A stretch of DNA of 42,061 nucleotides, from the NCBI GenBank assembly GCA_021813585.1, contig JAKAJV010000070.1, forward strand, positions 1-42,061, given 5' to 3'. This DNA is from Bacteroidota bacterium (GTDB lineage Bacteria; Bacteroidota; Ignavibacteria; Ignavibacteriales; Ignavibacteriaceae). The notes beneath the pieces are model-generated. The model made no database searches. It was given only the letters and a program-made list of their open reading frames with translations, and was not told the origin of the DNA. Below, piece by piece: positions 155-41,317 of this stretch. Numbering within the stretch: the stretch's first letter is position 1; each line of letters opens with the position of its first letter. The position numbers were made by a program, and so were the translations under genes.

Positions 155-1090
155 TTATTTAATTACTCTTGGCCCTACCTTGTTTATTTTGGAAATATAA
201 ATATCGCCGGCAATTTCAATCCCGGTCAATATTTTTTTCATTTCTGTTCCGGCCTTTTCGGCAATCTTTCTGGATGTGCTGAATGCAAAGATTGAGGGGC
301 CGGAGCCGGAGATGCTGCATCCCAGTGCGCCTGCTTTAATAGCAGCTTCTTTAATGTCATCAAAGCCCGGTATTAAAATTGATCTGACAGGCTCAACAAT
401 CCCGTCGTGCAGCGACCTGCCGATAAGCTCGTAATCGCCGCTCGTTAATCCGGCAACAAGACCGGCAACATTTGCCCACTGCTTTACTGCTTCGGAAAGC
501 AGCACCTGCTTGCGCAATATTTTTCTTGTATCGGCGGTATTAATTTCAATATGCGGATGGAGAATGGTGCAGAATAAATTGGCCGGGGTTTTTATGTTTA
601 TAACATCAAGAGGGCTTACGCTACGAACGATAATAAATCCGCCCATCAAGCATGCCGATACATTATCGGCATGAGGGGTGCCGCCGCAAGTTAGTTTTTC
701 TCCCTCAAGTGCAAACGGCAAAAGCTCCTTTCTGCTTAAAGGCGAGTCAAGCATTTCATTTAAAGCAAATACGCTTGCAACTGCGCTTGCGGCGCTAGAG
801 CCCAACCCGCTTCCAAGGGCCATCTTCTTATGGATTTCAATTTCAACTCCTTTATTAAAACCCAGATGCTCGACAAAAGACATAAGCGAGACTCCCGCTG
901 TATTCCTTGAAGAATCTAAAGGAAGCCTGCCGCCGTCTCCAGTAATTTTTGAAATCTTTACGCCGGGCTTTTCTTTTATCCTGAGAATTACCTCGTCGCC
1001 GGGCCAATCGATTGCAAATCCCAGTACATCGAAGCCGCAGCTAACATTTGTTACGGAAGCAGGTGCAAAAACCTTAATTTCTTTTTTCAT
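155..1090 (-). CDS. thrB: Homoserine kinase
   Basis: Phosphorylates homoserine with ATP to O-phosphohomoserine, the last step before threonine synthase; cytosolic. At 311 aa it has the usual length of GHMP-family homoserine kinases. The N-terminus reads VFAPASVTNVSCGFDVLGFA, the phosphate-binding loop ALGSGLGSSAASAVA lies at about residues 91-105, and the C-terminal GHMP motif GCSISGSGPSIFAF is near residues 258-272. It is the third gene of a minus-strand thrA-asd-thrB cluster, 56 nt after asd, so it is probably transcribed from the attenuated thr promoter. thrC is not in the window and may follow beyond the left edge. The start ATG at 1090 is directly in front of the conserved N-terminus. 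Function is very secure from motifs plus context. Confidence 0.95.
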   Translation of the reverse strand: MKKEIKVFAPASVTNVSCGFDVLGFAIDWPGDEVILRIKEKPGVKISKITGDGGRLPLDSSRNTAGVSLMSFVEHLGFNKGVEIEIHKKMALGSGLGSSAASAVASVFALNEMLDSPLSRKELLPFALEGEKLTCGGTPHADNVSACLMGGFIIVRSVSPLDVINIKTPANLFCTILHPHIEINTADTRKILRKQVLLSEAVKQWANVAGLVAGLTSGDYELIGRSLHDGIVEPVRSILIPGFDDIKEAAIKAGALGCSISGSGPSIFAFSTSRKIAEKAGTEMKKILTGIEIAGDIYISKINKVGPRVIK

Positions 1091-1146: not shown

Positions 1147-2193
1147 TTAGATATATCCTTCGGCTTTCATCAGCTCGGCGCAGAGCAGCGCGCCGCCGGC
1201 AGCGCCGCGGTTTGTGTTGTGAGAAAGTACGACAAATTTATAATCGAATATGGGATCTTCCCTTAGTCTGCCGATTGATACGGCCATGCCTTTATCCAGG
1301 TTCCTGTGAATTCTCGGCTGCGGATACCTGTCTTCTTCAAAATAGTAAATTGGTCTTAATGGTGCAGTAGGAAGATTAAGCTTCTGCGGCTCTGCGGAAA
1401 AATTCTTCCACGCTTTTTTTATCTCTTCAATAGACGCTTTCTTTTTTAATTTAACCTGAACGCATTCGGTATGGCCGTCAAGCACGGCAACTCTATTGCA
1501 CTGTGCGCTTATCTTTATTTCATTATTAATAATTTTATCTCCGTCGAATCTCCCTAATATTTTCAAAGGCTCTGTTTCTAGCTTTGGTTCTTCACCGGAA
1601 ATGAAAGGAATAACGTTGTCTACTATATCCAGACTTGCTACTCCCGGATAGCCGGCGCCTGACAGTGCCTGCATGGTTACAACGTTTACTGCTTCCAGGC
1701 CGAAATTATCTTGCAGAGGCTTTAATGCGAGCACCATTCCGATTGTCGAACAGTTTGGGTTGGTAACAATGCATCCGCCGTTGTAGCTTTGAGCTTTAAC
1801 AAGCTTAAGGTGGTCTGCATTTATTTCCGGCACGAGCAGCGGAACATCCTTATCCATACGGTGGTTTTTAGAATTAGAAACAACATAGTATCCCTTCTTG
1901 GCAAATGCTTCCTCTATTCCGCCTGCAACGCTTGAATCCAATCCCGAAAAAACCAATCTGCTTTCCAGATAAGGCTCGCATTCTTTTACTTTAAGGCCGG
2001 CAACATCATCGGGAAGCGGAGTTGAGAGAATCCAATTTACTGCGTCCTTATATAATTTGCCGGCGGATTTTTCGGAAGCTGCAACTTCGGTTACCTGGAA
2101 CCACGGATGGTTTGAAAGCAGCTCTATGAATTTTTGACCGACACTGCCGGTTGCGCCGAGAACCCCTACCGGAATTTTAGATTGTGATGACAT
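1147..2193 (-). CDS. asd: Aspartate-semialdehyde dehydrogenase
   Basis: Reduces aspartyl-4-phosphate to aspartate semialdehyde with NADPH, the branch-point precursor of threonine, methionine, lysine and diaminopimelate. The 348-aa protein starts with a Rossmann motif (GATGSVGQ, residues 13-20). The catalytic cysteine is C148 in NPNCSTIGM and the base is probably H241 in LDGHTECVQV. The PNCSTIG form and the length point to the archaeal/fungal-type branch of the family rather than the enterobacterial type. It sits between thrA and thrB on the same strand. The gap of about 214 nt to thrA is filled with short repeats, so an internal promoter cannot be ruled out. Confidence 0.95.
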   Translation of the reverse strand: MSSQSKIPVGVLGATGSVGQKFIELLSNHPWFQVTEVAASEKSAGKLYKDAVNWILSTPLPDDVAGLKVKECEPYLESRLVFSGLDSSVAGGIEEAFAKKGYYVVSNSKNHRMDKDVPLLVPEINADHLKLVKAQSYNGGCIVTNPNCSTIGMVLALKPLQDNFGLEAVNVVTMQALSGAGYPGVASLDIVDNVIPFISGEEPKLETEPLKILGRFDGDKIINNEIKISAQCNRVAVLDGHTECVQVKLKKKASIEEIKKAWKNFSAEPQKLNLPTAPLRPIYYFEEDRYPQPRIHRNLDKGMAVSIGRLREDPIFDYKFVVLSHNTNRGAAGGALLCAELMKAEGYI

Positions 2194-2407: not shown

Positions 2408-4864
2408 CTAACTTAAATAATTCGCCGTTCTTATAACATCGGCAAAAACTCCTGCTGCGGTTACATCCGCACCGGCTCCGGGGCCTTTTATTACAATCGG
2501 TCTGTCCTGGTAGTGGGAAGTAGTAAGGGCTAAAATGTTGTCGCTGCCTGCCAATGAATAAAACGGATGGTCTTTACCTACTTCCTGCAGGGAGATTTCT
2601 GCATTGCCGTTTTCGAGCCTGGCTATATATCTTAATGCACTGCCTCTTGCCTCGGCAGTCATTCTTTTAGACTCAAAATCTTTATCGAATTCCTTTAGCT
2701 TTTTGAAAAAGTCTTCAACCGAATTTATTTTTCTTGCCTGGACTGGCACAAGGTTCTGCACCTTTATGTCTTTCAATTCTAAAACCAATCCCGTCTCGCG
2801 GGCAAGTATAAGAAGTTTTCTAGCTACGTCGGTTCCTTTAAGGTCTTCTCTCGGGTCCGGTTCGGTATAGCCTTTTTCTTTTGCTTCCCTAACAATTTCG
2901 CTAAAAGCTTTATTGCCGTTAAATGAATTGAAAATGTAGCTGAGCGTACCGGAAAGAACACCCTCTATCTTCAGTACTTTATCGCCGCTGGAGACCAGGT
3001 CTTTAAGCGTGCTTATAATCGGCAGCCCGGCTCCTACGTTGGTCTCGTATAAGAATCGTACGTTATGTTTCAAAGCCGAATGCTTAAGCTGCTGGTAATA
3101 TTCGTAGCTGCCGGAGTTGGCTTTTTTGTTGGGAGTAACAATGGAAATACTTGAATCCAAAATTTCACTGTACCTTGCAACAACATTATCGCTCGCAGTG
3201 CAGTCGATAAATATACTGTTGGGAAGGTTCAGTCTTTTCATCTCGTCGATAAAATCGTCAAGGTTGGTCTTAGTGCCGCAGTCGAACAGTTTCGTTTCCC
3301 ATTCAACCGGCTCAATGCTGTCCCGGTCGATAAGCATTTTTCTGCTGTTGGCAAGACCTATAATCTTTACATTCAATAGATATTCTCTTGCAAGGAAATC
3401 GGATTGATGGCATAGCTGTCTTAGCAAAGTTCCGCCGATAAGCCCGGTTCCTACAAGATAGAGATTAACTGTCTTTGCTATTGACAGGAAGAACGCATCG
3501 TGCAAAGCATTCAGAGCCTTCGCTTCATTTTCCTTATTAATAACTGCGGAAATATTAAGCTCCGACGAGCCCTGTGCAATTGCAACAATGTTTATTCCGT
3601 TGCGCCCGAGTGCCTGGAAAACCCTGCCAGATATGCCTGGAGTCTTCCGCATATTTTCGCCTACAACTGCTATTATGGAAAGGTCGCTTTCTATTACCGG
3701 CTCGTTTACCAGCTTCTCTTTTATTTCGTAGTATAATTCCTGTTGAATAGCCTTCTTTGCTAATGCGGCAACCTTAGGTAGAACGGCGATACATAAGGAA
3801 TGTTCCGAGGAAGCCTGTGTAATCAAAATAATATTTATTCGTTTGCCGGCTAGTGCCGAGAATATTCTTTGCGCAATTCCCGCCACACCTACCATGCCGC
3901 CGCCCTGAACTCTGAGCAGCGCAATTTCATCAATCGATGATATGCCTTTGATTGAAAAATTGTGAGTATTGCTTTTGCCGTTAATTAGCGTTCCCTCGAA
4001 CGAAGGATTAAAAGTATTTTTAATTCTTATGGGAATTTTCTTTTCCAGTGCGGGCTGCATTGTAGGCGGATGAATAACCTTAGCGCCGAAGTGCGACAGC
4101 TCCATAGCTTCTTCATATGTCATGCTCTTAAGCGGGAAGGCCTTCTTCACTTTTTTAGGATCGGCGGTTAGCACGCCGTCCACGTCAGTCCATATTTCAA
4201 TTTCCTTTGCCTTAAGAGCGGCGCCGAAAATTGATGCCGAATAATCCGATCCGCCCCGCCCTAATGTTGTAGTTTCGTTATTTGCCGTAGAAGCAATAAA
4301 GCCGGTAATAATTTGAAGCTTATCATGGTTTTTAAAATAGCTTTTAATGTTCTTATATGTAGCCTCAAGGTCTACTTTCGCGCTGCCGAAAGTTTCATCG
4401 GTTTTAATCAGCAGCCTGCTGTCCAGGTATTCGCAGTCTAACTTCGAGTCCTTAATTGCATTTGAAATTATAAATGCAGATAATCTTTCACCAAAGCTCA
4501 AGATTAAATCCTGGGTCCTTGGAGAAATTTCTTTTACAAGATGCACACCGTGCAGCACGTCCTCAAGTTCATTTAAACTTAGTTTTAAAGAAGCCAGTAC
4601 GCTGCTTTGAGTTTTAACTGCAAGTACTTCCTTAGCCGTGGAAATGTGCCTATCTTCCAGCCTCTTAAATAATTCCAGGTAAGCCGGGTTACCTTCCGCA
4701 GCTGTCTGGCTCATTTTCAACAACTCGTCGGTAACTTTTTGGAAAGCAGAAAATATAACCGCGATCCTTTTATTCTCTTTCAAAGACGCCCTTATAATTT
4801 CAATTACGTTTTTTATTCGCTCGGTATTGCCGACCGAAGACCCGCCGAATTTTAAAACCTTCAT
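2408..4864 (-). CDS. thrA: Bifunctional aspartokinase / homoserine dehydrogenase
   Basis: Catalyses both the first step (aspartate phosphorylation) and the third step (aspartate semialdehyde to homoserine) of threonine synthesis. The 818 residues divide into an N-terminal aspartokinase (KVLKFGGSSVGN at residues 2-13; TTLGRGGSDYSA near 200), two ACT-type regulatory domains at about 310-460 and a homoserine dehydrogenase from about 465 (NLYLVGTGLIGGTLLRQL) to the end. The length matches E. coli ThrA (about 820 aa). The ACT domains suggest allosteric feedback, probably by threonine. The gene is preceded by a complete transcription attenuator with a Thr-rich leader peptide (4899-5103), so it is probably controlled by charged tRNA-Thr as well. 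The attenuator terminator ends 34 nt before the start codon. Confidence 0.96.
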   Translation of the reverse strand: MKVLKFGGSSVGNTERIKNVIEIIRASLKENKRIAVIFSAFQKVTDELLKMSQTAAEGNPAYLELFKRLEDRHISTAKEVLAVKTQSSVLASLKLSLNELEDVLHGVHLVKEISPRTQDLILSFGERLSAFIISNAIKDSKLDCEYLDSRLLIKTDETFGSAKVDLEATYKNIKSYFKNHDKLQIITGFIASTANNETTTLGRGGSDYSASIFGAALKAKEIEIWTDVDGVLTADPKKVKKAFPLKSMTYEEAMELSHFGAKVIHPPTMQPALEKKIPIRIKNTFNPSFEGTLINGKSNTHNFSIKGISSIDEIALLRVQGGGMVGVAGIAQRIFSALAGKRINIILITQASSEHSLCIAVLPKVAALAKKAIQQELYYEIKEKLVNEPVIESDLSIIAVVGENMRKTPGISGRVFQALGRNGINIVAIAQGSSELNISAVINKENEAKALNALHDAFFLSIAKTVNLYLVGTGLIGGTLLRQLCHQSDFLAREYLLNVKIIGLANSRKMLIDRDSIEPVEWETKLFDCGTKTNLDDFIDEMKRLNLPNSIFIDCTASDNVVARYSEILDSSISIVTPNKKANSGSYEYYQQLKHSALKHNVRFLYETNVGAGLPIISTLKDLVSSGDKVLKIEGVLSGTLSYIFNSFNGNKAFSEIVREAKEKGYTEPDPREDLKGTDVARKLLILARETGLVLELKDIKVQNLVPVQARKINSVEDFFKKLKEFDKDFESKRMTAEARGSALRYIARLENGNAEISLQEVGKDHPFYSLAGSDNILALTTSHYQDRPIVIKGPGAGADVTAAGVFADVIRTANYLS

Positions 4865-4898: not shown

Positions 4899-4934
4899 AA
4901 AAAAAACCGGCTCCATCTTCTGAAGCCGGTTTTC
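4899..4934 (-). terminator. thr attenuator terminator (3:4 hairpin)
   Basis: On the minus strand a 10-bp stem AAAACCGGCT/AGCCGGTTTT (4924-4933 with 4903-4912) closes an 11-nt loop and runs into eight U residues (4906-4899), a textbook intrinsic terminator. It lies between the leader peptide stop codon and the thrA start. Its 5' arm (4920-4931) can pair instead with sequence at the leader stop codon. Confidence 0.9.
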
Positions 4935-4971
4935 AATTTCTTATTATAAAATTTACACAACCAGGCTTCAG
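4920..4971 (-). promoter_or_regulatory. thr antiterminator (2:3 pairing)
   Basis: Minus-strand CTGAAGCCTGGTT (4971-4959, overlapping the leader stop codon) pairs with AACCGGCTTCAG (4931-4920): 12 base pairs with one bulged U. This consumes the 5' arm of the terminator. Region 2 can also pair with leader codons 9-12 (AACCGGTTTC, 5029-5020) as a 1:2 hairpin. The three mutually exclusive pairings reproduce the logic of the enterobacterial thr and trp attenuators: stalling on Thr codons masks region 1, frees region 2 and prevents termination. Confidence 0.85.
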
Positions 4972-5054
4972 CCTCCGGGCATACCAGTCGGGGTGGTAGT
5001 GGTGGTGGTAGTTATACAAGAAACCGGTTTATATGTAAATTTTTTGTTCTTCAT
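4968..5054 (-). CDS. thrL: thr operon leader peptide, Thr-rich
   Basis: A 28-codon frame directly upstream of thrA. It starts MKNKKFTYKPVSC, continues ITTTTTTTPTG and ends MPGG. Nine of 28 residues are threonine, seven of them consecutive (codons 15-21, ACT and ACC), preceded by one rare ATA isoleucine codon. The stop codon TGA lies inside the antiterminator arm, as a ribosome-sensing attenuator requires. There is no clear Shine-Dalgarno sequence, which is common in this bacterial group. The peptide itself probably has no function; its translation reports the supply of charged tRNA-Thr. The name follows the E. coli analogue; sequence homology is not claimed. Confidence 0.88.
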   Translation of the reverse strand: MKNKKFTYKPVSCITTTTTTTPTGMPGG

Positions 5055-5071
5055 AATCTTAAAATCAACGG

Positions 5072-5103
5072 CAAAACTAATATTTAATTTTTCCTTTGTC
5101 AAA
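5072..5103 (-). promoter_or_regulatory. Promoter of the thr operon
   Basis: On the minus strand TTTGACA (5103-5097) is followed by TAGTTTTG (5079-5072). This fits both the sigma-70 -35 hexamer TTGACA and the Bacteroidetes -33/-7 form (TTTG, spacer, TAnnTTTG), with 20 nt between TTG and the -7 box. Transcription would begin near 5066, about a dozen bases before the leader start codon. Confidence 0.7.
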
Positions 5104-5206: not shown

Positions 5207-7381
5207 TTATTTGATCAATAACATTTTCTTTACGGCAGTAAAATTTTGAGATTGATTAAGAGGATTTATTACGTTAAGCCTGTAAAAATATACACCGCTT
5301 GCCAAATCCGATGCATTAAAGTTGACTCTATAATGTCCCGGAACCATTTGGGCATTAACGATGGTTTTAACCTTTCTGCCCAATATATCGTAAATGCTTA
5401 TTGTTACATGCGAAAGTTTTGGAATATCATACCTTATTGTCGTTGCGGGATTGAACGGATTGGGATAATTCTGCCACAGTTTAAATGACCCCGGCGAAGT
5501 TTGTAACCCGGTTTGTTTTACGGATAAAACAATATCTCTCAATGGCATTTGCCAAATACCCTGAAAATTCCCAACAAAAACACTTGAATCGTTTACATAA
5601 ACAGAAGAAATAATCGATTCAAGGTTTCCACCTAATTTATTCCAGCTGTCACCATTGTTAGTAGACACATATAAATAAGTCCATGGAGCTGTAAAAATAT
5701 CCGAAGCATAAGCGAATAAAGAAAATGCCGCTCCGCCATATTTAATAGACCAATTTCTATCAATTATCCAGGTTTTACCATTATCCGTAGAACGAAAATA
5801 ACCACCTGTCGTGTCTACAATACCGGCATCCCCATTTGACAAAAACAGAACCCCGTTTGCCGATACGATACCTGTTTGCCCGTTGAAATATCCGGTATAA
5901 TAGAAATTATTTATCTTGTTCCAATTTTCGCCATTGTCGGTAGAGAGATACATACCATTCTCAAATACTGCGAAAACGCTGGAATCTACGATGGATAAAG
6001 CGGGTACACTTTTGGGCATACTGTTACTTGCAACCCTCCAGTTTGTACCATTATCCAAAGAAATAAAAATGCCGTTGTTAACCGTGGAAACGACAAGGTT
6101 AGGTCCGCTTTGAACAATATCTAACGGATGGAGCGTGTCCATAATTCCACCATTTATTGATTTCCAGTTATCCCCGTTATTTGAAGACACAAATATACCG
6201 CTGTCCGAAGTGGCTGCATATAATCCGGAACTTGTTGCAGTAAGATTTGGATTTACTTTTGTTACTAAGCCGCTGTCCTTAGCAGCCCTCCATGTAGTAC
6301 CATAGTCTGTGGAAAAAAATATCGGTGAACCATTAATTACGGCAAAGACCTTTGGTCCCAAACCGGTTATGGAACGTACTTCATTACCTACAGTTCCCTT
6401 ATTCTCAGCTTCCCAGTTCGCCCCATTATCTATTGATAAGTACACTCCGTTGTCTGTGGCAGCATAGAGATTTGTACCGCTGGTTTTATTAGGACCGGAT
6501 GCAATAGAAAATACCTGCTTGGGATATATAGGCAATCCGCTTGCTGCATTTGTCCAGCTTGCACCATTGTCCGTAGATTTGTAAACTCTTTTAGTTGTTC
6601 CTAAAAAAACATCTGAATCAGCTACTATTATAGAAAAGATGCTTGTGCCAAAACTTATCCCATTATTATCAGTTTCCCAGGAATACCCGTTATCAGTCGA
6701 CCTGAACATGCCGCCCGGTGTTCCGACAAATATGAATGAATTGTATGACGCTATACAATTAATAAACTGCAAAGAATTTAATGCATCGCCACTAATAGTA
6801 GTCCACTTATTCCCGTTATTTGTAGAAAAAATTAAGCCGGAAGACGTACATGCAAATATAGTATCTCCTTTAACACCAATTGCTTCAACCAGGTTTTGAA
6901 AATCTCCCAGTCCGCTGTCTACTGCCGTCCAGCTAGCCCCATAATTTTCGGAACGAAATATTCCGTTTTGAAGCGTACCTGCAAAAATAATTGTATCTTC
7001 AACCGCAAGAGACGTTATGTAATAACTCATAGAGGAATCCAGCATTGTCCAGGTAGCTCCCATGTCTGATGAAACTATAACACCGGCAGCAGTTCCGGCA
7101 AAAATAGTTGAATCAATTGATACAAAACAATTAGTAATGCTGCTGGTAACGCTTGCCCAGTCGGCACCATAATCTGTAGAACGATTTATGCCCGCAATAG
7201 TTCCCGAGAATACATATGAACCCACAGCTGTAACAGCATGTACTTCCCAGCCGGTTGGTCCGAGGTTAACACGTCTCCATTGGGCACCAACTTTTATGGT
7301 TGCTAATAATATTATTACGGTTAAAAAAATAATTTGATTACTAAATTTATACCCTGTTATATTCTGTAAAGCAAAACACAT
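5207..7381 (-). CDS. Secreted beta-propeller (Asp-box repeat) protein with type IX sorting domain
   Basis: A large exported protein with at least 13 copies of the Asp-box-like motif S-T-D-N-G-x-x-W (for example STDNGASWTNA, STDNGENWNKI), typical of sortilin/sialidase/YCF48-type beta-propellers. The last 100 or so residues are a canonical type IX secretion sorting domain: NYPNPFNPATTIRYDIP, then YDILGRKVKTI and LASGVYFYRL. The start chosen here (7381) gives a signal peptide (MCFALQNITGYKF, then a hydrophobic stretch ending VGAQ) and follows a GGGGGTG sequence; starts at 7393 and 7456 are also open. It is expected on the cell surface or outside. The substrate or partner is unknown. It is monocistronic, divergent from the PA14 gene and convergent with nothing. 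Confidence 0.85.
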   Translation of the reverse strand: MCFALQNITGYKFSNQIIFLTVIILLATIKVGAQWRRVNLGPTGWEVHAVTAVGSYVFSGTIAGINRSTDYGADWASVTSSITNCFVSIDSTIFAGTAAGVIVSSDMGATWTMLDSSMSYYITSLAVEDTIIFAGTLQNGIFRSENYGASWTAVDSGLGDFQNLVEAIGVKGDTIFACTSSGLIFSTNNGNKWTTISGDALNSLQFINCIASYNSFIFVGTPGGMFRSTDNGYSWETDNNGISFGTSIFSIIVADSDVFLGTTKRVYKSTDNGASWTNAASGLPIYPKQVFSIASGPNKTSGTNLYAATDNGVYLSIDNGANWEAENKGTVGNEVRSITGLGPKVFAVINGSPIFFSTDYGTTWRAAKDSGLVTKVNPNLTATSSGLYAATSDSGIFVSSNNGDNWKSINGGIMDTLHPLDIVQSGPNLVVSTVNNGIFISLDNGTNWRVASNSMPKSVPALSIVDSSVFAVFENGMYLSTDNGENWNKINNFYYTGYFNGQTGIVSANGVLFLSNGDAGIVDTTGGYFRSTDNGKTWIIDRNWSIKYGGAAFSLFAYASDIFTAPWTYLYVSTNNGDSWNKLGGNLESIISSVYVNDSSVFVGNFQGIWQMPLRDIVLSVKQTGLQTSPGSFKLWQNYPNPFNPATTIRYDIPKLSHVTISIYDILGRKVKTIVNAQMVPGHYRVNFNASDLASGVYFYRLNVINPLNQSQNFTAVKKMLLIK

Positions 7382-8483: not shown

Positions 8484-8648
8484 ATGAACAACGCAAAGAA
8501 AAATAGAGTGGATAATTTAGCTGCCGTAAAAATACACGGCAGTAAAGGCGTTGTTGTGAACGAATCGGTGAACATCCTTTCTTTGGATATCATTCTAGGG
8601 ATTTCGATTACTATTAGCATTCTACTAGGAATTATTATTCTAGGCTAA
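8484..8648 (+). CDS. Putative Ile/Leu/Val-rich leader peptide of the ilv-leu operon
   Basis: A 54-codon frame (MNNAKKNRVDNL...) ending IILGISITISILLGIIILG. Sixteen of its last 25 residues are Ile or Leu, and a VVV run sits further upstream, so it samples all three end products of the operon that follows. The rare Leu codon CTA is used four times near the end, as leader peptides often do. Nine bases after the stop a strong hairpin begins whose arm excludes a second hairpin. The position, directly after a good promoter and before ilvB, fits transcription or translation attenuation. Alternative: a small single-span membrane protein, because the C-terminus is hydrophobic enough to cross a membrane. 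The lack of a classical U-tract terminator keeps this below certain. Confidence 0.62.
   Translation: MNNAKKNRVDNLAAVKIHGSKGVVVNESVNILSLDIILGISITISILLGIIILG

Positions 8649-40928: not shown

Positions 40929-41317
<389 letters not shown>

Follow-up and report, generated by a model that had tools for sequence, protein, structure and literature searches.

A predicted threonine attenuator before thrA-asd-thrB in Ignavibacteriales and its probable recoded copies before other amino-acid genes

The window, that is, the whole stretch of 42,061 nucleotides analysed here (contig JAKAJV010000070.1 of assembly GCA_021813585.1, Ignavibacteriaceae), carries thrA, asd and thrB on its minus strand. The three genes are preceded by a short open reading frame (ORF) with a run of threonine codons, and an intrinsic terminator stands between this leader and thrA (Table 1). 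The next gene upstream lies on the same strand and ends at 5207. The first-pass annotation had described a promoter, a leader, alternative stems and a terminator at this place, and all of them were found on the minus strand. The stop codon of the leader, TGA at 4970-4968, falls within region 2 (4971-4959). Pairing of regions 2 and 3 recovered the proposed antiterminator of 12 pairs with one bulge, formed by CUGAAGCC(U)GGUU and AACCGGCUUCAG. The terminator stem (4934-4902) has 14 pairs and a loop of 5, with eight U at 4906-4899. The 28 codons of the leader include nine for Thr, one for Ile and one internal Met, the latter four codons before the stop.

Table 1. Coordinates of the leader element and of the genes that follow it in the window.
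Feature	Coordinates	Strand	Sequence and basis
Promoter, putative	5072..5103	-	TTTG 5103-5100, N20, TAGTTTTG 5079-5072; Bacteroidota -33/-7 type
Leader peptide ORF, 28 codons, MKNKKFTYKPVSCITTTTTTTPTGMPGG and stop	4968..5054	-	Sequence; Thr-rich leaders at the equivalent place in relatives
Control codons 15-21, an uninterrupted run of seven Thr codons	4992..5012	-	Sole such run in the genome
Region 1	5020..5043	-	Core AACCGGUUUC 5029-5020, outer arm 5043-5032; partner is region 2 with the bases that follow; folds, lineage-matched pairing
Region 2, CUGAAGCCUGGUU, containing the stop codon	4959..4971	-	Sequence, pairing
Region 3, AACCGGCUUCAG	4920..4931	-	Forms the antiterminator with region 2 or the terminator with region 4
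Region 4 and U8 tract, intrinsic terminator	4899..4915	-	Sequence, terminator scan
thrA, bifunctional aspartate kinase/homoserine dehydrogenase, regulated gene (predicted)	2408..4864	-	NF006959, 1083 bits, cut-off 726
asd, aspartate-semialdehyde dehydrogenase	1147..2193	-	TIGR00978, 459 bits, cut-off 301
thrB, homoserine kinase	155..1090	-	NF002288, 386 bits, cut-off 194

The putative promoter fits the Bacteroidota -33/-7 consensus (TTTG-N20-TAGTTTTG) taken from passages of PMC7366714. Two strict matches to this promoter type were found in the 42-kb window, both strands included, and among 22 leaders of relatives a match was present in 11 (strict) or 15 (loose). A sigma-70 scan of the window did not list the leader promoter. 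When the region was compared with the DNA of its own genome, 10 other matches were obtained, all of them at query positions 7-210, a stretch that takes in the last part of the upstream gene and the bases just past it, before the promoter.

Two further features were observed on the plus strand. A tmRNA gene at 40929-41317 was the window's only Rfam match above the cut-off. At 8484-8648, an ORF of 54 residues ending in LDIILGISITISILLGIIILG and a stop stands before an operon led by ilvB. It gave no Pfam match; it was matched in 11 of the 13 genomes of the genus and re-read by script in nine of these 11 loci. In eight of the nine, an ilvB motif lies 416-549 bases beyond the ORF. The stem GGTCAATCC/GGGATTGACC follows the ORF, with no U tract directly after it. 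The ORF is a candidate for a branched-chain leader or a small membrane protein.

A run of seven ACN codons was found at a single place in the 4.54-Mb genome and nowhere in the reversed control. The RNA from leader to terminator folds with -46.1 kcal/mol, compared with -29.1 kcal/mol (sd 3.7) for shuffled sequences (z = -4.6), and none of 200 shuffles was as low. When the terminator was left out, z was -1.1 and 26 of 200 shuffles were equally low. The alternative 1:2 hairpin that had been proposed is present in the full-length fold; with such a z value its stem is not significant from the window sequence alone, and its support comes from the relatives.

The element recurs in the order. ThrA matches were obtained in 75 of 164 genomes (E <= 1e-200), and by script a Thr-rich leader followed by a terminator was identified upstream of thrA at 22 loci, which belong to families f1, f2 and f3. 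Five more loci, in which the U tract is short or interrupted, were recognized by eye (L082, L083, L100, L117 and L153), while two doubtful ones (L187 and L224) were excluded from the counts. Ignavibacteriales-type loci with the arrangement upstream of thrA number 27, and one ThrA clade of 28 contains 26 of them. Reading by script of the DNA before thrA at 30 other loci of the order (L154-L183) gave no such leader; the leader scripts are weak on broken U tracts, and further such leaders may have escaped. Three loci (L015, L020 and L071) have less than 110 bases of upstream sequence. In the window's genus, a model built on the thrA elements and spanning regions 2-4 (R1) matched in 12 of 13 genomes; in the remaining one (G003) only 92 bases of contig precede thrA.

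In a FastTree tree of ThrA with 124 rows, the clade of 28 has a support of 95. Two of its members (L032 and L080) lack the element, and two loci outside it (L027 and L097) carry it. The presence and absence of the element required 5 changes on this tree, compared with a mean of 25.5 after shuffling. As far as sequences can tell, this shows an element inherited within one ThrA clade and not a lone case. The first-pass annotation had suggested either wide conservation or convergent evolution; conservation was found within the order, at the 27 loci. One of the outlying copies, a Thr6 attenuator before thrA (L097), is on a contig of a metagenome-assembled genome (MAG) labelled Patescibacteria. Its ThrA groups with KSB1 sequences on long branches, and the MAG is perhaps a mislabelled bin.

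An alignment of the regions upstream of thrA from related genomes had been proposed as a check. The Thr run was found to be conserved and the covariation was positive, in the 2:3 and 3:4 stems mainly in one column, as most of their other columns vary little. Region 2 is misaligned by MAFFT because of its bulge, and the 2:3 pairs were counted by duplex folding. Over the 26 loci with a common region 3, one 2:3 pair was C-G in 13 and U-A in 12. The matching 3:4 pair was G-C in 14, A-U in 5 and an A-C mismatch in 7. RNAalifold reported double changes in two of 11 terminator pairs.

Pairing was also evaluated by an alignment-free test, in which each lineage's strand was paired with the partners of other lineages. 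For 20 representatives, the 1:2 duplex reached -15.7 with its own partner and -13.7 with swapped ones (p 0.0012), and the 2:3 duplex -16.2 and -13.9, respectively (p 2e-5), values to be read with the relatedness of the leaders in mind, since related leaders are not independent. Shuffling of region 1 gave a combined p of 1.5e-5, single leaders reaching p <=0.05 in six of the 20. An earlier swap among nine groups, Bacteroidia included, gave p values of 0.0017 (1:2), 1e-4 (2:3) and 1e-4 (3:4).

The ORF, the stems, their conservation, the lineage-matched pairing and the geometry are computed features, and leader, terminator and alternative stems recur in the relatives. The classical ribosome-mediated threonine attenuator that had been proposed is the best-supported reading of them: the element very likely attenuates transcription of thrA-asd-thrB by sensing charged tRNA-Thr. 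Such a prediction implies that the promoter would be active, the leader translated, ribosomes stalled on it, transcription terminated after it and the operon responsive to threonine. With ample threonine, the ribosome would reach the stop codon and cover region 2, so that regions 3 and 4 pair as the terminator. A shortage of charged tRNA-Thr would instead stall the ribosome on the Thr codons, where it would block the 1:2 stem, either by covering region 1 (codons about 7-16) or by sitting between the two arms (later codons). Region 2 would then pair with region 3 and transcription would continue into thrA. If the leader were not translated at all, 1:2 would form first and termination would follow.

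The geometry was modelled with an assumed footprint of the ribosome, reaching 15 nt upstream and 12 nt downstream of the first base in the A-site codon. In ORF coordinates, the core of region 1 spans nt 26-35 and region 2 nt 84-96, and the stop codon starts at nt 85. With this footprint, a ribosome at the stop codon covers nt 70-97, the whole of region 2, which agrees with the earlier claim. The other half of that claim, that a ribosome on codons 17-21 covers region 1, did not hold: with the A site on these codons the footprint begins between nt 34 and nt 46, and nearly all of region 1 lies outside it. Under the same assumption, overlap with region 1 occurs with the A site on codons about 7-16; at codon 15, for instance, the footprint extends over nt 28-55 and takes in most of region 1. 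On codons 17-21 the ribosome would sit between the two arms and should thereby prevent 1:2 as well.

In a masking model of the window leader, again with an assumed footprint, 2:3 kept 11-12 pairs at every Thr codon and was reduced to 6 pairs (-0.6 kcal/mol) at the stop codon. Among 13 leaders, 0-7 pairs of 2:3 were left at the stop. Three of them (L022, L026 and L068) lost 2:3 at the last Thr codon, L097 lost it stepwise and L021 held 1:2 at the first Thr codon. When regions 1-3 were folded alone, without a ribosome, 2:3 was preferred in 11 of the 13 leaders, which means that termination by default requires 1:2 to be formed ahead of 2:3.

The search of 160 genomes of the order with R1 also found elements before other genes. 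Two stand before metY (O-acetylhomoserine sulfhydrylase), namely L276 in G030 (71.7 bits) and L278 in G028 (70.1 bits; protein TIGR01326, 690 bits). Their leaders are rich in Met and end in AMSMWMCMMIPLGS and AMWMCMIMMFPQGS, respectively, followed by the stop. In G454, a Thr leader precedes thrB-thrC (L279, 66.4 bits) and a weaker match with Thr and Met codons precedes a homoserine dehydrogenase gene, hom (L287, 47.7 bits), whose protein matches the homoserine dehydrogenase half of NF006959, below the whole-protein cut-off. Two more weaker matches were L301 in G432 (41.3 bits), where Thr and Met codons precede a homoserine dehydrogenase named by eye, and L289 in G427 (44.0 bits), with five Cys codons before cysK; the latter gene is a fragment that matches cysteine synthase below the whole-protein cut-off. 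Eleven weak R1 matches (L288, L290-L295 and L297-L300) were read, and none had a leader fitting the next gene.

The identity of these elements was controlled over the stretch from before the stop codon to the terminator, with 300 shuffles per pair. The metY and thrA elements were 67-71% identical (shuffles <=63%), L287 before hom and L289 before cysK 85% (shuffles <=63%), and L279 before thrB-thrC and L067 79% (shuffles <=64%); in each case none of the 300 shuffles was as good. The coding parts of the leaders were 13-31% identical between metY and thrA, and 59% between L287 and L289. Such high identity of the scaffold, together with differing codons, makes the elements look like recoded copies of one scaffold. 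It is likely, as judged from these comparisons, that in Ignavibacteriales one attenuator scaffold was copied and recoded for Thr (thrA, thrBC), Thr and Met (hom), Met (metY) and Cys (one cysK). The window element would then be the threonine member of a small aspartate/sulfur amino-acid family.

The identity control narrowed this claim to the copies that it supports. Leaders with a run of three Cys codons (CCC) before cysK were not supported as copies of the thr scaffold, as 134 of 300 shuffles were as good for L302 against L009 and 45 of 300 for L308 against L009. The metY leader L355 was likewise not supported as a copy, with 300 of 300 shuffles as good against L332.

Surveys of metY and cysK were carried out in the same 160 genomes. 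For metY, matches were obtained in 69 genomes and 30 loci were read. A SAM-I riboswitch precedes metY at 27 of these (8 of 11 and 19 of 19 in two batches), and the three loci without it (L332, L333 and L355) are exactly those with a Met-rich leader and a terminator. L332 and L333 are the two metY scaffold copies, and L355 has a different terminator, four Met, four Cys and no likeness to L332. At metY, metabolite riboswitch and leader-peptide attenuator appear to replace one another. The window's own genome gave no metY match at E <= 1e-120.

For cysK, 72 genomes had a match and 30 loci were fetched. A CCC leader with a terminator was found at eight of them and none at 16, and the script could not read the other six. 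The window's genus accounts for seven of the eight, one of them being the window's own genome. There, on contig C112 (7564-8577; L296, L302), the CCC leader MFKCCCYILKFLLMDDAA and a terminator precede a cysK that is over the cut-off. This element scored 35.8 bits with R1, has a weak 2:3 pairing (-8.7 kcal/mol) and is not recognisably the thr scaffold. A search for His runs returned only a His-rich protein tail and no his leader.

The control residues were evaluated by counting codons in the three frames of the 27 leaders. ACN codons were found 178 times in frame and 41 and 18 times in the other frames. For ATG, start codons left out, the counts were 54 in frame and 7 and 1 in the others, and for Ile codons 33 in frame and 48 and 37. 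Internal Met occurs in 26 of the 27 leaders. Twelve representatives contain 27 Met, compared with 8.2 (sd 2.5) in shuffled sequences (0 of 500 as many), and Ile was not raised. The second enriched residue across the clade is Met, not Ile. A response mainly to threonine with only one Ile codon, as had been predicted, fits the 9 Thr and 1 Ile of the window leader; for the clade, the residue that comes second is another one.

The frame-specific ATG and the Met-rich scaffold copies before metY and hom also bear on a different reading, in which threonine and methionine would be sensed about equally. We consider this unlikely for the window, whose leader has 9 Thr against a single internal Met, and the counts over the clade come from related leaders and are not independent. 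Besides ThrA, the window's own genome encodes one further aspartate kinase.

Alternatively, the locus could hold a constitutive terminator and a chance short ORF, which would end transcription from the upstream gene or trim the thrA mRNA and sense no threonine. In favour of this, no other element approaches the terminator in stability, and the upstream gene ends nearby on the same strand. Such an explanation is nevertheless very improbable, given that the genome has no second Thr7 run, that ACN and ATG are concentrated in one frame over 27 leaders, that region 2 pairs with region 3 in a manner matched by lineage and that the codons track the downstream gene in the scaffold copies. A ligand-binding leader (a riboswitch or a protein-bound RNA) with an incidental ORF, to which the well-conserved sequence of region 3 and the surrounding terminator could point, is hardly credible, as no Rfam family scored above its cut-off at the attenuator, region 1 shifts its position along the leader between relatives and the codon content is frame-specific and tracks the gene.

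The attenuator predicted here places a complete threonine system in an uncultured lineage with Bacteroidota-type promoters. More surprising than the thr attenuator itself appear to be the scaffold copies with Met and Cys codons before Met and Cys genes. If true, the recoded copies are nature's own codon-swap experiment, and they allow a direct test of how attenuators change their amino acid, with the same RNA and different codons and gene. Neither a methionine version of leader-peptide attenuation nor a report joining Ignavibacteria with attenuation and leader peptides was found in the open-access literature searched.

The first-pass annotation had stressed the occurrence outside the proteobacteria. 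This occurrence is real, and it is less surprising than stated. Passages of a transcriptome study of Flavobacterium psychrophilum (PMC9723704) report strong clues for leader-peptide attenuation in the same phylum, with leader peptides before amino-acid biosynthesis operons as here; those passages name neither thr nor elements. Outside the order, an Ile/Thr-rich leader with a terminator was found before thrA in 5 of 49 regions (4 of 4 in f22 and 1 of 1 in f27), so that such leaders occur in some Bacteroidia. These leaders and the clues in the passages of PMC9723704 suggest that leader-peptide attenuation is not new to the phylum. A similar ORF was observed beside thrA in G288 (f22). At three f37 loci (L052, L060 and L063), Ile/Thr-rich ORFs end some 100 bases upstream of thrA; no terminator was found there, and their thrA may be under another control mode. 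As for the cysteine leaders, passages of PMC1262725 describe short ORFs with Cys runs before cys operons of Actinobacteria, where no conserved terminator was seen. The cysK leaders found here resemble them in the Cys-run ORFs before cysteine genes, and differ from those described there in having a terminator after the leader.

RF00506 (Thr_leader) was the best-ranked Rfam family at the window element. The match is full-length, with Thr codons and terminator aligned, and reaches 24.1 bits (E 0.016), below the gathering score of 55 that separates members of the family. As a probe of distribution the family was rejected, as E <= 0.1 gave 249 of 296 genomes of the phylum and most of the inspected loci lacked thrA or a Thr leader. 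Above the cut-off it matched in one of the 296, in a Thr/Gly-rich repeat, and no thrA start was found in that locus. The window element would work like Thr_leader though it is not a member by cut-off.

In the thr system of Escherichia coli, the ribosome stalls on a run of threonine codons and thereby switches the thr genes. The window shares with thrL-thrABC a Thr-rich leader peptide directly before the fused aspartate kinase-homoserine dehydrogenase gene, the same logic of stop codon, antiterminator and terminator, and thrB in the operon. In contrast to E. coli, Ile is not enriched as a second control residue, asd stands between thrA and thrB, the promoter is of the Bacteroidota type and no thrC is present at the 3' end within the window. 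Vitreschak is said to have predicted, in 2004, attenuation by Thr, Ile and Met for thrA of Pasteurellales, as well as attenuators in Bacteroidetes/Chlorobi. The elements described here resemble these predictions in both respects, with Met codons in the thrA leader and attenuators outside the proteobacteria.
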